From positions 1 through 8,142 of the forward strand of contig JBFLYA010000172.1 in NCBI GenBank assembly GCA_040757115.1: a stretch of 8,142 bases of DNA, written 5' to 3'. Below the pieces are notes generated by a model, which did no database searches, had not been told where the DNA came from, and saw only the letters and a program-made list of their open reading frames with translations. The stretch's first letter is position 1, and each line of letters opens with the position of its first letter. Source of the stretch: a bacterium. GTDB taxonomy: Bacteria > UBA9089 > CG2-30-40-21 > SBAY01. Positions 2,494 through 7,613 of the stretch are shown here, in pieces. Both the position numbers and the translations under genes were made by a program.

Positions 2494-2564
2494 GTAAGCG
2501 GATTGAACGGATTGAGCGGATTTTTTTTATTTCTTTTTCCGCTAAATCCGTTAAATCCGCTTAC
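2494..2564. repeat. Hairpin with 27-bp arms that ends the helicase fragment
   Basis: Arms at 2494-2520 and 2538-2564 are complementary at 25 of 27 positions around a 17-base T-rich loop. Each arm is itself built from near-repeats of ggatt(t/g)aac / gcgga words. A degenerate further copy (gtaagctgattaaacagatt) lies at 2462-2481. The outer end at 2564 coincides with the last base of the helicase remnant's stop codon, so this element marks the breakpoint of that gene. It could also act as a bidirectional terminator-like structure. Confidence 0.85.
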
Positions 2565-3229
2565 TAATCTTTATGTTCATCGGAAATCAAATCGGAACGG
2601 TAATAAAAAACGGTAATCTCGTTTTTAGCAAACGGCAGGACATTTTCGCGCTTCACGCTCTCGTAATCTCTCAAATTTTTAAGGTTTATCTTTGTGTTAA
2701 AGTTAAAGCTGTTAAATTCCTCAACATGATTTTTGAATTGGTCCAAAAGGTCATCGCGGTGAACCAAAAAGAGAATATCTCCTGTAAGCAATTCTTCTTC
2801 GGCAATAAGCTTGCCCAAAAGCTCAATAAGTTTAACGATAATCAGCGTCTTGCCCGAGCCGGTCGCCATCCAAAAGCTCATTCGGTTTATAAAATGTGCG
2901 AAAGGGATTTTTGAATCTATGGCGGGATAATCCTTATCATATTCTAAAAGATATTTTGCCGTCTTTTTGCCTTCCCTCTTTTTCAGGTCGTAATCAAAGT
3001 TTTCCCTAAAATCGTTGGTTTGATAGTGAACAAATAAACTCTGTTTGTCCGCTTTTTTGTCTTTAAAATAAAGCCATAAACCTTTGAGTGCGTTTTGAAG
3101 CCCTTCTTTTTGAAAATCAAAAAGCGTCTTGTCTTTTGAAAACCGCGCAAAATCAAACCCCTGCCATTTTGCCGGTAAGTTTTCAAAAGAAATATCATCT
3201 ACGATGTTTTGTAAGTATAAGTTACTCAT
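2564..3229 (-). pseudogene. Type III restriction (Res-like) DEAD/DEAH helicase, N-terminal fragment
   Basis: The first 221 residues of a superfamily 2 helicase of the kind found as the Res subunit of type III restriction systems, which uses ATP to translocate and cut DNA. Seen here: FDFQKEGLQ (38-46), a Walker A FWMATGSGKTL (119-129) and motif Ia DILFLVHRDDLLDQF (151-165). Intact relatives run to many hundred residues with a DEAH box, a second RecA domain and a nuclease domain, none of which is present. The last family-like residues are RSDLISDEHK; the next codons are Asp and a TAG whose final base is the first base of the 2494-2564 hairpin. The ATG start overlaps the end of the upstream gene (ATGAGTAA), so it was translationally coupled to it. 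It cannot be active as a nuclease. Family assignment is good; the precise subtype is inferred. Confidence 0.85.
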
Positions 3230-3924
3230 TCTTGTTTATACTTTTCTTTTCGAATTTATTTCCTATTTCTTGTTTGTTTTTCGGGTTTATTTCGGGTTTA
3301 TTTCGGGTTTTAGTTAAAACATATTTTGTTTTTCTGCCAGTTATTCCAATTTTTTGAAAATACCCATAGAGCATAAAGAATTTAAGTCAATAAGAGCCAT
3401 CCTATCTGTTATACCGAACATGCTTCTATACTCTTTATTCGTTACCTCTCCCTTCTCCTTAACATACATCACCACTTTTATCTGTCTTTCATTTAATCCC
3501 ATCTTTCTTAAATTTTCTTCTGTATAAATATCTTTATAAAAATAAACTAAAAACCCGCCAAATTCTTCTTTAAATTCTGGTTCAGGCAGTCCCGCCTTTT
3601 TACATTCATCAGTAATTTTAATAGTTCCTCTGCCCCATGCCTCTATCAACCCTGCTTTGAAAAACACATCTGCCAACAATTCATTTCTGGGATAAGATGA
3701 ATGGCTTTTCTTTAATTCATCAATCTTAATTTCTTTTGGAAGTGTTCCTACATTCCAGCAAATCTTCAAGCAATTTTTTTGAATCCTTTAAGCCAACAGG
3801 ATTGCCATTATCATCAACTCCGATTAGCAATCTTCCACCATCAGTATTTGCAAAGGCGCAAAATCCACTTAAGATATTCATCCCGCCAGGATAATTTAAA
3901 TTCGGTTGTCTGGGATTCTCTCAT
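3222..3924 (-). pseudogene. AlbA_2/RecG-like ATP-binding protein, internally deleted and frameshifted
   Basis: Remnant of a two-part protein with an N-terminal AlbA_2 (divergent AAA-4, DNA-binding) domain and a C-terminal GHKL-like plus winged-helix part. The ATG at 3924 gives MRESQTTEFKLSWRDEYLKWI. An extra base in the A run at 3860-3863 (plus strand) then shifts the frame, and the next frame gives FANTDGGRLLIGVDDNGNP and SKKLLEDL, the classic AlbA_2 core. Near 3760 it jumps, in a third frame, to WNVGTLPKEIK, HSSYPRNELLADVFFKAG and EAWGRGTIKI, which belong some 250 residues later in the family, so about 0.7 kb is deleted. The winged helix (ERQIKVVMYVKEKGEVTNKE) runs to 3350, where one base missing from an A run causes a stop at 3341. 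The shifted frame continues IGITGRKTKYVLT for 42 residues to TAA at 3222-3224, overlapping the helicase ATG. The start is preceded by AAAGGG, spacing 6, and lies 2 bp after the Bro-N stop. Confidence 0.85.
3281..3313 (+). repeat. 11-bp tandem repeat, three copies, inside the AlbA_2 gene tail
   Basis: tcgggtttatt, tcgggtttatt, tcgggttttag at 3281-3291, 3292-3302 and 3303-3313. The unit is not a multiple of three, so each copy is read in a different frame on the minus strand (encoding the tail around RNKPEINPK), and a gain or loss of one unit would shift the frame just before the helicase start. Confidence 0.7.
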
Positions 3925-3926
3925 AT

Positions 3927-4757
3927 TTATCCCTTTAATCTCTTTTGACTTTCTGGTTTCTCTAAATAATTATCTTTAGAGACGATAGATTTCTTTAATC
4001 TTCTTTCCAGCTGTCTGCGAGCATTACCAGCAATATCACCACCTGCTTTAGCATCTGCTTTCAATTTTGGCATGCCCATTGAATCTTCTACCTTATGAAT
4101 TTCAGTAGTAGCACGCTCACCAAGCATAGTAAAAATTAATTCCAGGTCATCCATATGGTCACGCAGATTTTCCCGCTTCAGTCCTTTTAATTCTTTATAT
4201 TGGCTTGGGGTTATATCAAATGTTGCTTTTGAGATTTCCGCAGTTAAGATTTCATAATCCTTCTGTTCCTGTGCCCCTCTTTTTTGCCATTCGTCTGTTA
4301 GTTCCTCACGGATGGCAATGCCCCGCATCCTCTTTTCAATCCAATCGTCAGAATAGCCCTTTAATTTATAAAGCATTCGTGTCCGTTTAGTTGCTAATTC
4401 AGGATTTTCTATCTCCTGCACCCGTTCGTAACCAACATGAGCTAACCATTTCTTAAACGGCTCGGCTTTTGGTGAAGGTATTGACTGGATAATCCGAAAA
4501 ACACCTTCTGTATTAGCGCAATCAGTTTCACGCATTTTTCCATCCGGCGCTTCCAATTTCAACCCGTGACAAAATGTCACGACTTCACTTCCTTCTTCTT
4601 TTAATCGCTGTTTCAATTTTCTCCAATAGGCGCCGGCATCGACACTATCTGTCAATGCTTCGCATACATCAGTAACCGAAAACCACCACTCGTTTTGATA
4701 AATGGTTTTTCTGATTTTTTTGCCCTTGAATAATGCTATTTTTGTTGTTGTTTCCAT
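3927..4757 (-). CDS. Bro-N family protein (phage antirepressor-like DNA-binding protein)
   Basis: A complete 276-residue protein with an N-terminal Bro-N domain, a DNA-binding fold known from baculovirus BRO and phage antirepressor proteins. Recognisable stretches are KGKKIRKTIYQNEWWFSV (11-28), LKLEAPDGK (66-74), TDCANTEGVFRIIQSIPSPK (78-97) and FKKWLAHVGYERVQEIENPE (101-120). The rest is helical and basic, including SDDWIEKRMRGIAIREELT (136-154) and GLKRENLRDHMDDLELIFTML (192-212). The start is fixed by GGAGG seven bases upstream of the ATG. It lies between the methyltransferase fragment (16 bp upstream) and the AlbA_2 remnant (2 bp downstream), so it was part of the restriction operon; relatives are often found inside restriction or mobile loci. 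It is the only intact gene of this unit. The likely role is DNA binding or regulation of the locus; the target is unknown. Confidence 0.88.
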   Translation of the reverse strand: METTTKIALFKGKKIRKTIYQNEWWFSVTDVCEALTDSVDAGAYWRKLKQRLKEEGSEVVTFCHGLKLEAPDGKMRETDCANTEGVFRIIQSIPSPKAEPFKKWLAHVGYERVQEIENPELATKRTRMLYKLKGYSDDWIEKRMRGIAIREELTDEWQKRGAQEQKDYEILTAEISKATFDITPSQYKELKGLKRENLRDHMDDLELIFTMLGERATTEIHKVEDSMGMPKLKADAKAGGDIAGNARRQLERRLKKSIVSKDNYLEKPESQKRLKG

Positions 4758-4764
4758 ATTTTTA

Positions 4765-4769
4765 CCTCC
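4765..4769 (-). promoter_or_regulatory. Strong Shine-Dalgarno site for the Bro-N gene
   Basis: GGAGG on the minus strand with seven bases (TAAAAAT) before the ATG. It fixes the start of the Bro-N gene and shows that this gene could still be translated although its upstream neighbour is broken. Confidence 0.8.
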
Positions 4770-4773
4770 ATTC

Positions 4774-5119
4774 CTACTCCCACCAAATCAATGGTTTAAT
4801 TATTTTATAATCCAAATCTTTGGTATTGATTTTTGTGCCGTCTTCAAACTCCACTTCATAATTCCACTCTTTTAGAGGGGTGGCAAACGAAGTTTGACGG
4901 GGTGTTCCTTCCCAGAAATTCAGAGGGGAATTCAACCGGCAAACTTCTGAAAATTCGGTCGGTTTTGACATAGTAAACCATCTGCGTTTTCCAAAAGAGG
5001 ATAACATCCTTCTCATCTGTATAAACCTTTTCGTAGATATTGTTGTGAAAAGGCGTTGAATTGAAATAGATTGAGCCGCTTTTAATAAAGTAGCGGCTGA
5101 AAAATGAGTAAAGTTTGTC
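4774..5119 (-). pseudogene. Probable type III DNA methyltransferase (Mod-like) fragment with a frameshift
   Basis: Reading minus from 5119 gives DKLYSFFSRYFIKSGSIYF, NNIYEKVYTDEKDVILFWK and YYVKTDRIFRSLPVEF, which I recognise by memory as the LY.FFSRYY ... W....YYVKT signature in the N-terminal part of large site-specific adenine methyltransferases of type III systems. This frame stops at 4856. The neighbouring frame then reads EWNYEVEFEDGTKINTKDL and YKIIKPLIWWE to the stop at 4774. One extra base in one of the C runs (plus-strand G runs at 4877-4880, 4899-4902 or 4925-4928) would join them. The gene has no beginning: its 5' side is replaced by the 64-bp repeat starting at 5120. The catalytic motifs (FxGxG, DPPY) are absent. 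An open frame with a TTG start at 5121 spans both parts but is only partly the true frame. Being broken seems certain; identity is moderate. Confidence 0.6.
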
Positions 5120-5183
5120 AACTGATAGGAATTTCCTTTGTGAATCTACAGATGAACGCAGATATTAGGATTTAAAAGAAGAA
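5120..5183. repeat. 64-bp direct repeat, left copy
   Basis: This 64-bp stretch (aactgataggaatttccttt ... ttaaaagaagaa) is repeated in the same orientation at 5907-5970 with only two mismatches. This copy abuts the broken 5' end of the methyltransferase fragment and is followed by another repeat-like string (cacgaattccacaaattaac). The 160 bases from here to the toxin stop contain no gene. Confidence 0.9.
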
Positions 5184-5345: not shown

Positions 5346-5669
5346 TTAAGGGTTTTCCAGTTCTTCTCGATCTTGCAGTTTTCTTTTAATAGTCCGGGGA
5401 GCACGTGCACAATGGAAAAGTCCATACACAATAATCTGGCCATCTTTTATCATGTAATAAATACTATACGGAAATCTTCTGAGCAGACAGCGACGGAATT
5501 CTTTATAAACTTTCGGATAAAGCAATGGATTCCATCGAATTCCTCCAACACATGCATAAAATATCCGAAGAAATTCCTCCCCAAGTCCCGGTGATTTTGT
5601 TTCATACCATACATAAGCACCGATAATATCTTCCTCGATTTCAGGAAGAAAACGCAGTGGGTATATCAT
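5346..5669 (-). CDS. RelE/ParE-family toxin of a type II toxin-antitoxin pair
   Basis: A 107-residue protein with the RelE/ParE fold layout: a helical hairpin (EIEEDIIGAYVWYETKSPGLG, about 10-30), an Arg-rich strand (RRCLLRRFPYSIYYMI, 59-74) and the C-terminal HCARAPRTIKRKL (86-98), which matches the H.AR.PR.. ending common in this family. Members either cut mRNA on the ribosome (RelE-like) or poison gyrase (ParE-like); the sequence does not decide which. The ATG overlaps the antitoxin stop by four bases (ATGA), with AGGT in the antitoxin's last codons as ribosome site, so the two are translationally coupled. It appears complete. Cys87 stands where glycine is more usual. Confidence 0.87.
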   Translation of the reverse strand: MIYPLRFLPEIEEDIIGAYVWYETKSPGLGEEFLRIFYACVGGIRWNPLLYPKVYKEFRRCLLRRFPYSIYYMIKDGQIIVYGLFHCARAPRTIKRKLQDREELENP

Positions 5670-5887
5670 TTTCTACCTTGTATTTTTGCCTGAAGTTCAT
5701 CGAGAGATAAAAGAGTCCCCCGCCCAGATTCATATCTTTTGAACCTTTTGTCCAACTCCTCTATGTGGCTTTGAGGAATAGGAACAACAGATTCATCCGA
5801 AGCAATACTATCCCACAGATTCTCAACAAACAAAATCTTTTCCGGCGTACTTAATTTAGTGATTTCGGGAATATCATTCACGCGCAC
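5666..5887 (-). CDS. Antitoxin of the addiction-module (Unstab_antitox) family
   Basis: A 73-residue acidic-to-mixed protein matching the small addiction-module antitoxins that pair with RelE/ParE toxins. The landmarks are ITKLSTPEKILFVENLWDSIA (9-29), where the ls..E...l.e.LwdSi pattern is diagnostic, and a C-terminal helix with SLDELQAKIQ (61-70) that would wrap the toxin. It is read first in the pair and would neutralise the toxin and probably repress the operon. The start is GTG at 5887, chosen because AAGGAG lies seven bases upstream; a second in-frame GTG two codons later is a weaker alternative. The promoter at 6023-6051 is about 130 bases upstream, and the right copy of the 64-bp repeat sits in the leader between them. 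Confidence 0.85.
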   Translation of the reverse strand: MRVNDIPEITKLSTPEKILFVENLWDSIASDESVVPIPQSHIEELDKRFKRYESGRGTLLSLDELQAKIQGRK

Positions 5888-5906: not shown

Positions 5907-5970
5907 AACTGATAGGAATTTCCTTTGTGAATCCACAAATGAACGCAGATATTAGGATTTAAAAGAAGAA
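5907..5970. repeat. 64-bp direct repeat, right copy
   Basis: Partner of 5120-5183, same orientation, with two differences (c for t, a for g near the middle). It lies in the leader of the toxin-antitoxin operon, only seven bases upstream of the antitoxin's ribosome site. Together the copies bracket the toxin-antitoxin pair. Confidence 0.9.
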
Positions 5971-6113: not shown

Positions 6114-7613
6114 TTACGCCAGTATCACTGGTAGGCGAAAGGTTTCACGGATTATGGTTGCTTCTTGAAGAGTAAAAACAACTATAACCATATCTTCTGG
6201 TGAAATCTGATTTAAGAGAACATCACCTGGTATCCGCCATTCTTTTTCCGATGTCCAATCACTCTTTGATAAGTGATGTAATTGGAATCTAAACCGTTCA
6301 GTCGCTGGTAGTTTCTTGAATTTAGATTCAGGGGCATAGATTACTGGTTTAATCGCCATCTTTTTCAGGATATTTCTCCGAATGCCGATTCCATAAGGTT
6401 CAAAAGTCCAGCGAATCAAAGCAGGGTTCCATTTACGGATTTTAATCAATTCATTTGGTAGGCAAGCAGTAAATGAAGTTACCGGCGTTTTTCCCCGAAT
6501 AAGCCGATTACTGGCACGAATAAGTTTTTCTTTGAGAATTCGGCATAAGGTATCAAAAGCCGTATGCCCGGCATCAGATTCACCAGCAATAAGTGATTGG
6601 ATATATGCAGATAAAGATTGTCCTGGCCATGGTCCAGGGCAGGCACGAGTATAATGAAAGAGATACTCATCTAATTTAACCATATCGAGTTCAATTGTAT
6701 GGAGTGGAGTATCCGTGACACTGCCTACCTCAACTGTCTGAAGTGGCGTGTCTATGACACTGCCTACCTCCAAAGACTCTGCACCAGATAATAATAAATT
6801 CTGATTGCCTTTTGTGTTCTGGTCAAATCTTGTTGGTCGAAATACGGTAACCTTCTTTTTTTCTGAAAATGATTTAGCCACTAATCTCTGGATATTCCCT
6901 TGTGCACAAGCCTCAGCTACAAAGAGATACTCGGCTAAAGCCACTACCCAGTAATCGCGAGTAACCAATCGTTCCTTACGAGATGGTAAGGTAATTTCAG
7001 GTAAGAATGGGGAGATAAACAGTGTCTTTTCTAATCCAAACATATTGCTGAATTTATCGTAAAAAGCCTTTTGAAGGTCAGGGGTTAATACCCCTGGTAA
7101 ATATTCATCCAGAACAATAATCACTGGTGAATGAAATTGTTTGGCAATAAAGGTAACTATTTCGTAAGTAAGTATGCCAAGGCTGGAAACAATCGTCAGT
7201 TTTTTTGCGATTACCTGTTGAGTTAATTTTATTGTTACTTTTAGCCAGCGAGTAGTAGGTGTTACGGCACGAAGTTTATGTGAATTTAATACCGCGGCCT
7301 TAGAGGAATTTAGTATCTCTGGATTCCCCTGAGCAAAAAGGATTTGCTCACCAATAAATAACACAAAAACACCATTTTCTAACCATTGCTTTGCTTTTTC
7401 TTTTGCCTGATGAATATTTAACCGATGAGCAGATAAACCATATCTTTTACTTACCTCCGTAATCCAGGTATATGGGTCATCAAAAATATTATTACTTTTA
7501 TTGATTTTTATCAGAAAGGAAGAAACTTGAGTGGCAGTTAAATGTTTAAATTGAGAAAATAAGGCAAGAGTAAAAAGTATGGGAAAAGAAGAGTTATCTT
7601 TCAATTTTTGCAT
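6114..7613 (-). CDS. DprA-like (SLOG/Rossmann) protein fused to a C-terminal DUF2971-like domain
   Basis: A 499-residue protein. Residues 1-85 are mostly helical, like the front domain of DprA. Residues 89-260 follow the DprA Rossmann plan: EQILFAQGNPEIL (the DprA lf.GN..lL motif), AAVLNSHKL, IAKKLTIVSSLG, SPVIIVLDEYLPG, VTRDYWVVALAEYLFVAEAC and KKKVTVFRP. Yet DprA's GSR, SG.A.GID and RNRIIA motifs are replaced, so a role in loading RecA onto DNA is unlikely and a nucleotide-sensing SLOG-type role is more plausible. A linker carries two 13-residue repeats (283-308). The C-terminal part has FHYTRACPGPWPGQS (319-333), VTSFTACLP (378-386), RWTFEPYGIGI (401-411), KPVIYAP and DWTSEKEWRIPGD (452-464). 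This order (HYT, SFT, G-I, P-V-Y, E-E-R) recalls DUF2971/ADP-ribosyltransferase-like proteins; that is a guess. The ATG has AGGGAG only one base upstream, so the TTG at codon 4 is an alternative start. Monocistronic; promoter candidate at 7758-7786. Confidence 0.7.
   Translation of the reverse strand: MQKLKDNSSFPILFTLALFSQFKHLTATQVSSFLIKINKSNNIFDDPYTWITEVSKRYGLSAHRLNIHQAKEKAKQWLENGVFVLFIGEQILFAQGNPEILNSSKAAVLNSHKLRAVTPTTRWLKVTIKLTQQVIAKKLTIVSSLGILTYEIVTFIAKQFHSPVIIVLDEYLPGVLTPDLQKAFYDKFSNMFGLEKTLFISPFLPEITLPSRKERLVTRDYWVVALAEYLFVAEACAQGNIQRLVAKSFSEKKKVTVFRPTRFDQNTKGNQNLLLSGAESLEVGSVIDTPLQTVEVGSVTDTPLHTIELDMVKLDEYLFHYTRACPGPWPGQSLSAYIQSLIAGESDAGHTAFDTLCRILKEKLIRASNRLIRGKTPVTSFTACLPNELIKIRKWNPALIRWTFEPYGIGIRRNILKKMAIKPVIYAPESKFKKLPATERFRFQLHHLSKSDWTSEKEWRIPGDVLLNQISPEDMVIVVFTLQEATIIRETFRLPVILA
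6690..6767 (-). repeat. 39-bp tandem duplication in the linker of the DprA-like fusion gene
   Basis: Two adjacent 39-bp units encode VGSVIDTPLQTVE and VGSVTDTPLHTIE (residues 283-308). It lies exactly between the Rossmann part and the C-terminal domain, so it works as a variable-length linker and keeps the frame. Confidence 0.85.

Follow-up and report, generated by a model that had tools for sequence, protein, structure and literature searches.

An 8,142-nucleotide stretch of bacterial DNA (GenBank assembly GCA_040757115.1, contig JBFLYA010000172.1), analysed here at its full length and called the window, carries the remains of a type III restriction–modification (R-M) locus in which a Bro-N gene and an AlbA_2 gene lie between mod and res. 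A preliminary description of the sequence had suggested that this four-gene order might be a distinct, regulated or extended version of the restriction system. The question that we address is whether Bro-N and AlbA_2 belong to such a fixed arrangement, or whether the junction between mod and res takes up different genes in different genomes. Comparison loci are referred to by their L numbers.

Organization of the locus

The pieces are read on the minus strand in the order Mod remnant, intact Bro-N gene, broken AlbA_2/HATPase_c_4 gene and Res remnant, and each of the four is backed by profile or homology searches. Mod survives as an N-terminal part (4922–5119, about residues 125–190 of 886; 77% identity and E 4e-34 in tblastn of the intact L002 Mod; 89% to the L103 Mod over the same stretch) and a C-terminal tail with its stop codon (4774–4857; residues 860–886, with similarity over 4857–4777; 85% identity to L002 Mod, E 6e-11). 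Between them lies an interspersed repeat (4858–4921) of a family found again in L175 (81% over 47 bp). An extension of the Mod remnant to 5161 reported by tblastn was rejected as a chance match, real similarity beginning at 5119. The Bro-N gene (3927–4757) is intact and encodes 276 amino acids (Pfam E 1.8e-15). The AlbA_2 gene is represented by the frameshifted start of an AlbA_2 (Schlafen-type) domain (3759–3924; Pfam SLFN_AlbA_2 E 1.6e-10; 79–85% identity to residues 8–61 of the L154 AlbA_2 protein) and by a C-terminal part with HATPase_c_4 and a tail (3222–3763; Pfam HATPase_c_4 E 2.4e-17; 82% identity to residues 292–428 of the L154 protein). The Res remnant (2567–3229) covers the N-terminal helicase part, residues 1–229 of 998, with 83% identity to L002 Res and 92–93% to L164 Res (Pfam ResIII E 2.9e-13). 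The remains extend past the span first described, to a second, minus-strand Res scrap at 2279–2163 that starts from residue 318 and contains GDFSPIEKQKIVLKTLLL (tblastn E 2e-6).

The joints between the pieces are narrow. The Mod stop at 4774 and the Bro-N start at 4757 are 16 bp apart, the Bro-N stop at 3927 is separated by 2 bp from the AlbA_2 ATG at 3924, and the AlbA_2 stop and Res start have in common the 8-bp overlap ATGAGTAA at 3229–3222. The four pieces, their order and these spacings had been given in the preliminary description and were recovered at the same places by the searches and from the stop and start coordinates. Its account of a decayed, tightly coupled type III operon whose mod and res enclose two additional genes likely to have DNA-binding parts is likewise borne out by the joints and by the intact relatives L002 and L154.

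Intact relatives identify a type III system

L002, from an Acetothermia genome, holds an intact Mod (886 aa)–Bro-N–Res (998 aa) operon joined by a 13-bp overlap and a 3-bp gap, and L154 holds an intact Mod–AlbA_2–Res operon; both are about 80% identical to the window pieces. L002 Mod has an N6/N4 adenine methylase domain (Pfam N6_N4_Mtase E 1.4e-31; PADLOC MTase_III E 1e-277), and L002 Res combines ResIII (E 5e-18) with the C-terminal PD-(D/E)XK nuclease motif PDFIFW..FVDPK; the window keeps the N-terminal helicase part only. Since both intact loci have Mod and Res together, the Mod and Res pieces come from the same system rather than from unrelated ones, and judged by these sequences they evidently represent one real type III system. 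The Mod–AlbA_2–Res order of L154 is also intact in L167 and L168, and in L155 and L178 a stump of 34 AlbA_2 residues remains at this position. In L166 the order is Mod–Bro-N–Res with a frameshifted Bro-N gene, and L012, from a Bacteroidetes genome, is a second fossil in which a frameshifted Bro-N gene is followed by the first 33 Res residues only.

The L002 Res search, which covered about 1,150 genomes and a plasmid collection, placed this type III subtype in Thermotogota and many other groups. No relatives of Res or AlbA_2 were found in viral contigs, and comparison of Bro-N and Res with the sequences of solved structures gave no useful match. On another contig of the L002 genome, a stray scrap of the Res C-terminus (L136:5734–5864) was found; this genome may have lost a second Res copy.

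Decay of the window copy

About 670 Mod codons are absent, the methylase domain among them, with the interspersed repeat in their place. Relative to the intact L154 protein, the AlbA_2 gene has a deletion of about 230 internal codons and is frameshifted, also near its end, and three quarters of Res are missing. These losses, which took the greater part of Mod and Res and the middle of AlbA_2, show decay by deletion as well as by frameshift. A 64-bp direct repeat (5120–5183, with a copy at 5907–5970) starts exactly where the Mod remnant ends at 5119. Between the two copies, which are 97% identical, a gene pair for a ParE-type toxin and an addiction-module antitoxin (5346–5887) adjoins the Mod remnant.

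Codon comparisons gave dN/dS values of about 0.04 for Bro-N against L002, 0.05–0.07 for the Res piece against L164, L137, L002 and L154, and 0.07 for the AlbA_2 C-terminal piece against L154; these values are rough, as synonymous distances are partly near saturation. Ratios in this range indicate that every piece was under selection for most of its history, and they support a four-gene operon that would have been working in the recent past and would have decayed recently. In the window genome, this Bro-N gene and this Res are each present once. As a restriction system, capable of ATP-dependent cleavage at paired unmethylated sites, the locus is dead; Bro-N, its only intact gene, may still be expressed.

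The Bro-N protein and its relatives

The Bro-N protein matches the full-length PADLOC profile PDC-S13, a candidate defence family (E 1.2e-118 over residues 1–272). Its AlphaFold model is confident (mean pLDDT 88), and in this predicted structure both domains match the fold of Deinococcus radiodurans DdrC in the same order. The whole model reaches Z 14.2 against DdrC (next unrelated fold 6.1) and the C-terminal domain alone Z 14.9 (rmsd 3.7 over 135 residues; next 7.0), at a sequence identity of only 10–13%, so that the fold match proves no function. DdrC binds and holds DNA breaks. Escherichia coli DinD, which is induced by DNA damage, presumably has the same N-terminal domain as the Bro-N protein, and this likeness points in the same direction. 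Given the DdrC-like predicted fold, a role of the Bro-N cargo in handling or sensing DNA breaks seems more likely than one in transcriptional control.

A search seeded with the Bro-N protein returned at least 560 relatives from genomes of bacteria and archaea, and neighbourhoods were read for the best 80 of these. Eleven of the 80 adjoin R-M genes (L002, L005, L009, L012, L014, L020, L027, L029, L035, L053 and L079) and about 69 do not, so that Bro-N does not need an R-M system. In L005, L014, L020 and L053 the gene lies between the R and M genes of other R-M types with 1–3 bp on each side, and of the six Bro-N loci that are tightly flanked by same-strand genes on either side, five are R-M operons. 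Elsewhere Bro-N adjoins housekeeping genes, e.g., those for gyrase A or DNA polymerase III. In one locus (L033:7661–11202) its flanking genes, 24 bp and 2 bp away, both terminate in a PEP-utilising mobile domain. Relatives are rare on plasmids (11) and in viral contigs (4); the gene is thus not carried mainly by phage genomes, as a phage antirepressor of the Bro-N/KilA-N kind would be, and an origin of Bro-N as a phage gene was rejected on this distribution. Among AlbA_2 relatives, one overlaps hsdR in an Arcobacter type I locus and others lie away from R-M genes.

Content of the mod–res junction

Beside the window, 31 mod–res junctions of this type III subtype were readable, mostly from metagenome-assembled or draft genomes that are unevenly sampled. 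Twelve of them are empty (L102, L103, L112, L124, L125, L127, L137, L160, L161, L164, L165 and L175) and 19 are filled, with eight kinds of insert. These are Bro-N (L002, L166); AlbA_2 or its stump (L154, L167, L168, L155, L178); RhuM-Fic (L156); AAA_14/DUF4143 (L157); AAA_13 with a PrrC-like region (L162); MNT plus HEPN (L158); a CBASS pair of CD-NTase/SMODS cyclase and Cap15 on Rhodothermus marinus plasmid pRHOM17201 (L104:4536–5989); and small PD-(D/E)XK-like ORFs (L126, L128, L130, L131, L133, L134, L135). L002, L154, L156, L157, L162 and L104 share with the window an inner gene that is co-oriented with the flanking M and R genes and has operon-like joints. Bro-N and AlbA_2 occur together in none of the 31 junctions. 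PADLOC profiles PDC-S13, S23, S01 and S06 match cargo genes of the slot; the AlbA_2 protein matches only parts of Argonaute-system profiles.

Cargo is exchanged among close relatives. In a Res tree from a quick search, in which the window row is only 23% filled, the window groups with L164 (empty), L002 (Bro-N), L137 (empty) and L154 (AlbA_2), and the distribution of slot content on the tree requires at least 14 changes. This number and the mixed content among the nearest Res relatives indicate that cargo turns over faster than Res diverges. In L158 (positions 3–1361), scraps of an older AlbA_2–Res junction come first and are followed by a Mod tail, MNT, HEPN and an intact Res; this order looks like the product of recombination between two junctions. 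In six of the loci with small ORFs (L126, L128, L131, L133, L134 and L135), Res is shortened to 615–684 aa and its nuclease motif is gone, and a separate ORF of 153–261 aa with a D..ExK pattern lies between mod and res. These ORFs are mostly unrelated to one another, and the six loci resemble type III systems whose nuclease is detached and swappable.

The order Mod–Bro-N–AlbA_2–Res was sought in the 19 genomes of the home phylum, in 386 spread genomes and in the phyla of several relatives; it was absent there, and in all, about 1,150 genomes yielded no recurrence outside the window. The window, a single decayed locus, is the only known case of a two-cargo junction. The distinct or extended restriction subtype of the preliminary description is not supported by these results, as in the closest relatives the junction holds a single insert (Bro-N, AlbA_2 or an AlbA_2 stump) or is empty. 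On the sequence comparisons, the mod–res junction appears to be a swappable cargo slot and not a fixed subtype.

Discussion

We consider it probable that the window holds a recently decayed type III operon whose mod–res slot had taken up Bro-N (PDC-S13) and AlbA_2/HATPase_c_4 cargo. Accessory defence genes would come and go in this slot, which the conserved mod tail and res start flank on either side. Because most joints measure a few bases, the cargo would be co-expressed and probably translationally coupled with Res. Each cargo would then work as a second-line defence module beside the restriction enzyme. More tentatively, the Bro-N protein might bind broken or nicked DNA and so act on, or sense, breaks made by Res or by phage. 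It is conceivable, if rather doubtful, that the mod–res junction of this type III subtype is a dedicated exchange slot in which a recurrent, DdrC-type break-binding cargo couples restriction cuts or restriction failure to a second defence step, and that the slot can hold the nuclease itself, giving detached-nuclease type III systems.

That the four pieces are unrelated debris gathered in a repeat-rich, decaying region can practically be dismissed. The region does contain interspersed repeats, the 64-bp direct repeat and gene scraps, but the order, strand and stop/start joints of the pieces and their similar divergence from L002 and L154 are not the work of chance, and these two intact relatives, which show the same neighbours, already refute it. 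It is also very improbable that the breaks are assembly or sequencing errors in an operon that is intact in the organism. The genome is a draft of 462 contigs and the single-base shifts in AlbA_2 could be such errors; however, the loss of large segments from Mod, AlbA_2 and Res, where repeats now stand instead, is not a matter of base-level errors, and no other copy of this Res was found in the genome.

Two further readings accept the operon and differ on what its inner genes are. One, the view of the preliminary description, makes Bro-N and AlbA_2 fixed subunits of a four-gene type III subtype that regulate or extend restriction. The tight joints, the intact Bro-N gene and the single occurrence of both genes in the slot of close relatives fit this view, but all 31 other readable junctions lack the four-gene order and some close relatives have neither gene, and we regard it as improbable. 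The other has Bro-N as a transcriptional controller of the R-M operon, derived by repurposing a phage antirepressor domain; this is somewhat less improbable, though still unlikely. Bro-N domains are present in repressors and antirepressors of phages, and the N-terminal part of the protein resembles small DNA-binding domains, e.g., that of Mbp1 (Z 4.7). Against this, the gene is internal to the operon, with M and R on either side, and does not stand at its head, its family stands alone beside many housekeeping genes, its C-terminal domain matches DdrC, and four viral contigs with a relative compare with at least 560 stretches in genomes. The wider pattern appears to point to embedded defence or DNA-end-handling genes rather than to a dedicated regulator.

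Genes embedded in R-M operons are an already established kind. The prrC anticodon nuclease is embedded in the EcoprrI type IC locus (PMC3874165; PMC12707154), likewise an accessory defence gene lodged within an R-M operon; that locus is of type I with one well-studied toxin, whereas the window is of type III, has other cargo and is decayed. DarTG2, a full defence module, lies between hsdS and hsdR in the RRDM island, a possible recombination hotspot (PMC12255303), also a type I locus and, unlike the window, one with a dedicated repressor at its head. PDC families were found by their embedding in known defence systems (PMC12988326; PMC10855318). The PADLOC PDC set (Payne et al. 2024 preprint, as cited in PMC12988326) includes PDC-S13 and the three other slot families, and the AlbA_2 protein stands apart from it with its partial Argonaute-system matches. 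Exchangeable toxin-like domains are already on record for R-M loci of types I and III, and the available part of that account of immunity–suicide coupling does not describe Bro-N or AlbA_2 cargo (Makarova et al. 2012; PMC3506569). DdrC resembles the Bro-N protein in predicted fold and domain order and differs in its low sequence identity and in being a stand-alone DNA-damage protein.

Our literature search found nothing direct on Bro-N or AlbA_2 in type III systems. In the literature outside the Payne et al. 2024 preprint we found no description of so broad a range of cargo in a single type III slot, of two cargoes stacked in one junction, of the DdrC-like fold of PDC-S13 or of the detached nuclease in short-Res loci. 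The window copy is no more than a fossil; of interest are the range of cargo and the DdrC-like fold. Should the slot prove real and general, the mod–res junction would be a simple place to seek unknown type III defence genes, as hsd loci are for type I. The predicted fold would give PDC-S13, a widespread family that many candidate phyla carry, a testable activity in DNA-break binding.

Other genes lie on either side of the operon remains. An integrase-core (rve) ORF (1–561) runs off the window start and is followed by a polyprenyl synthetase gene (730–1644), and a 499-aa ORF (6114–7613) has a weak DprA-like match below the Pfam cut-off.
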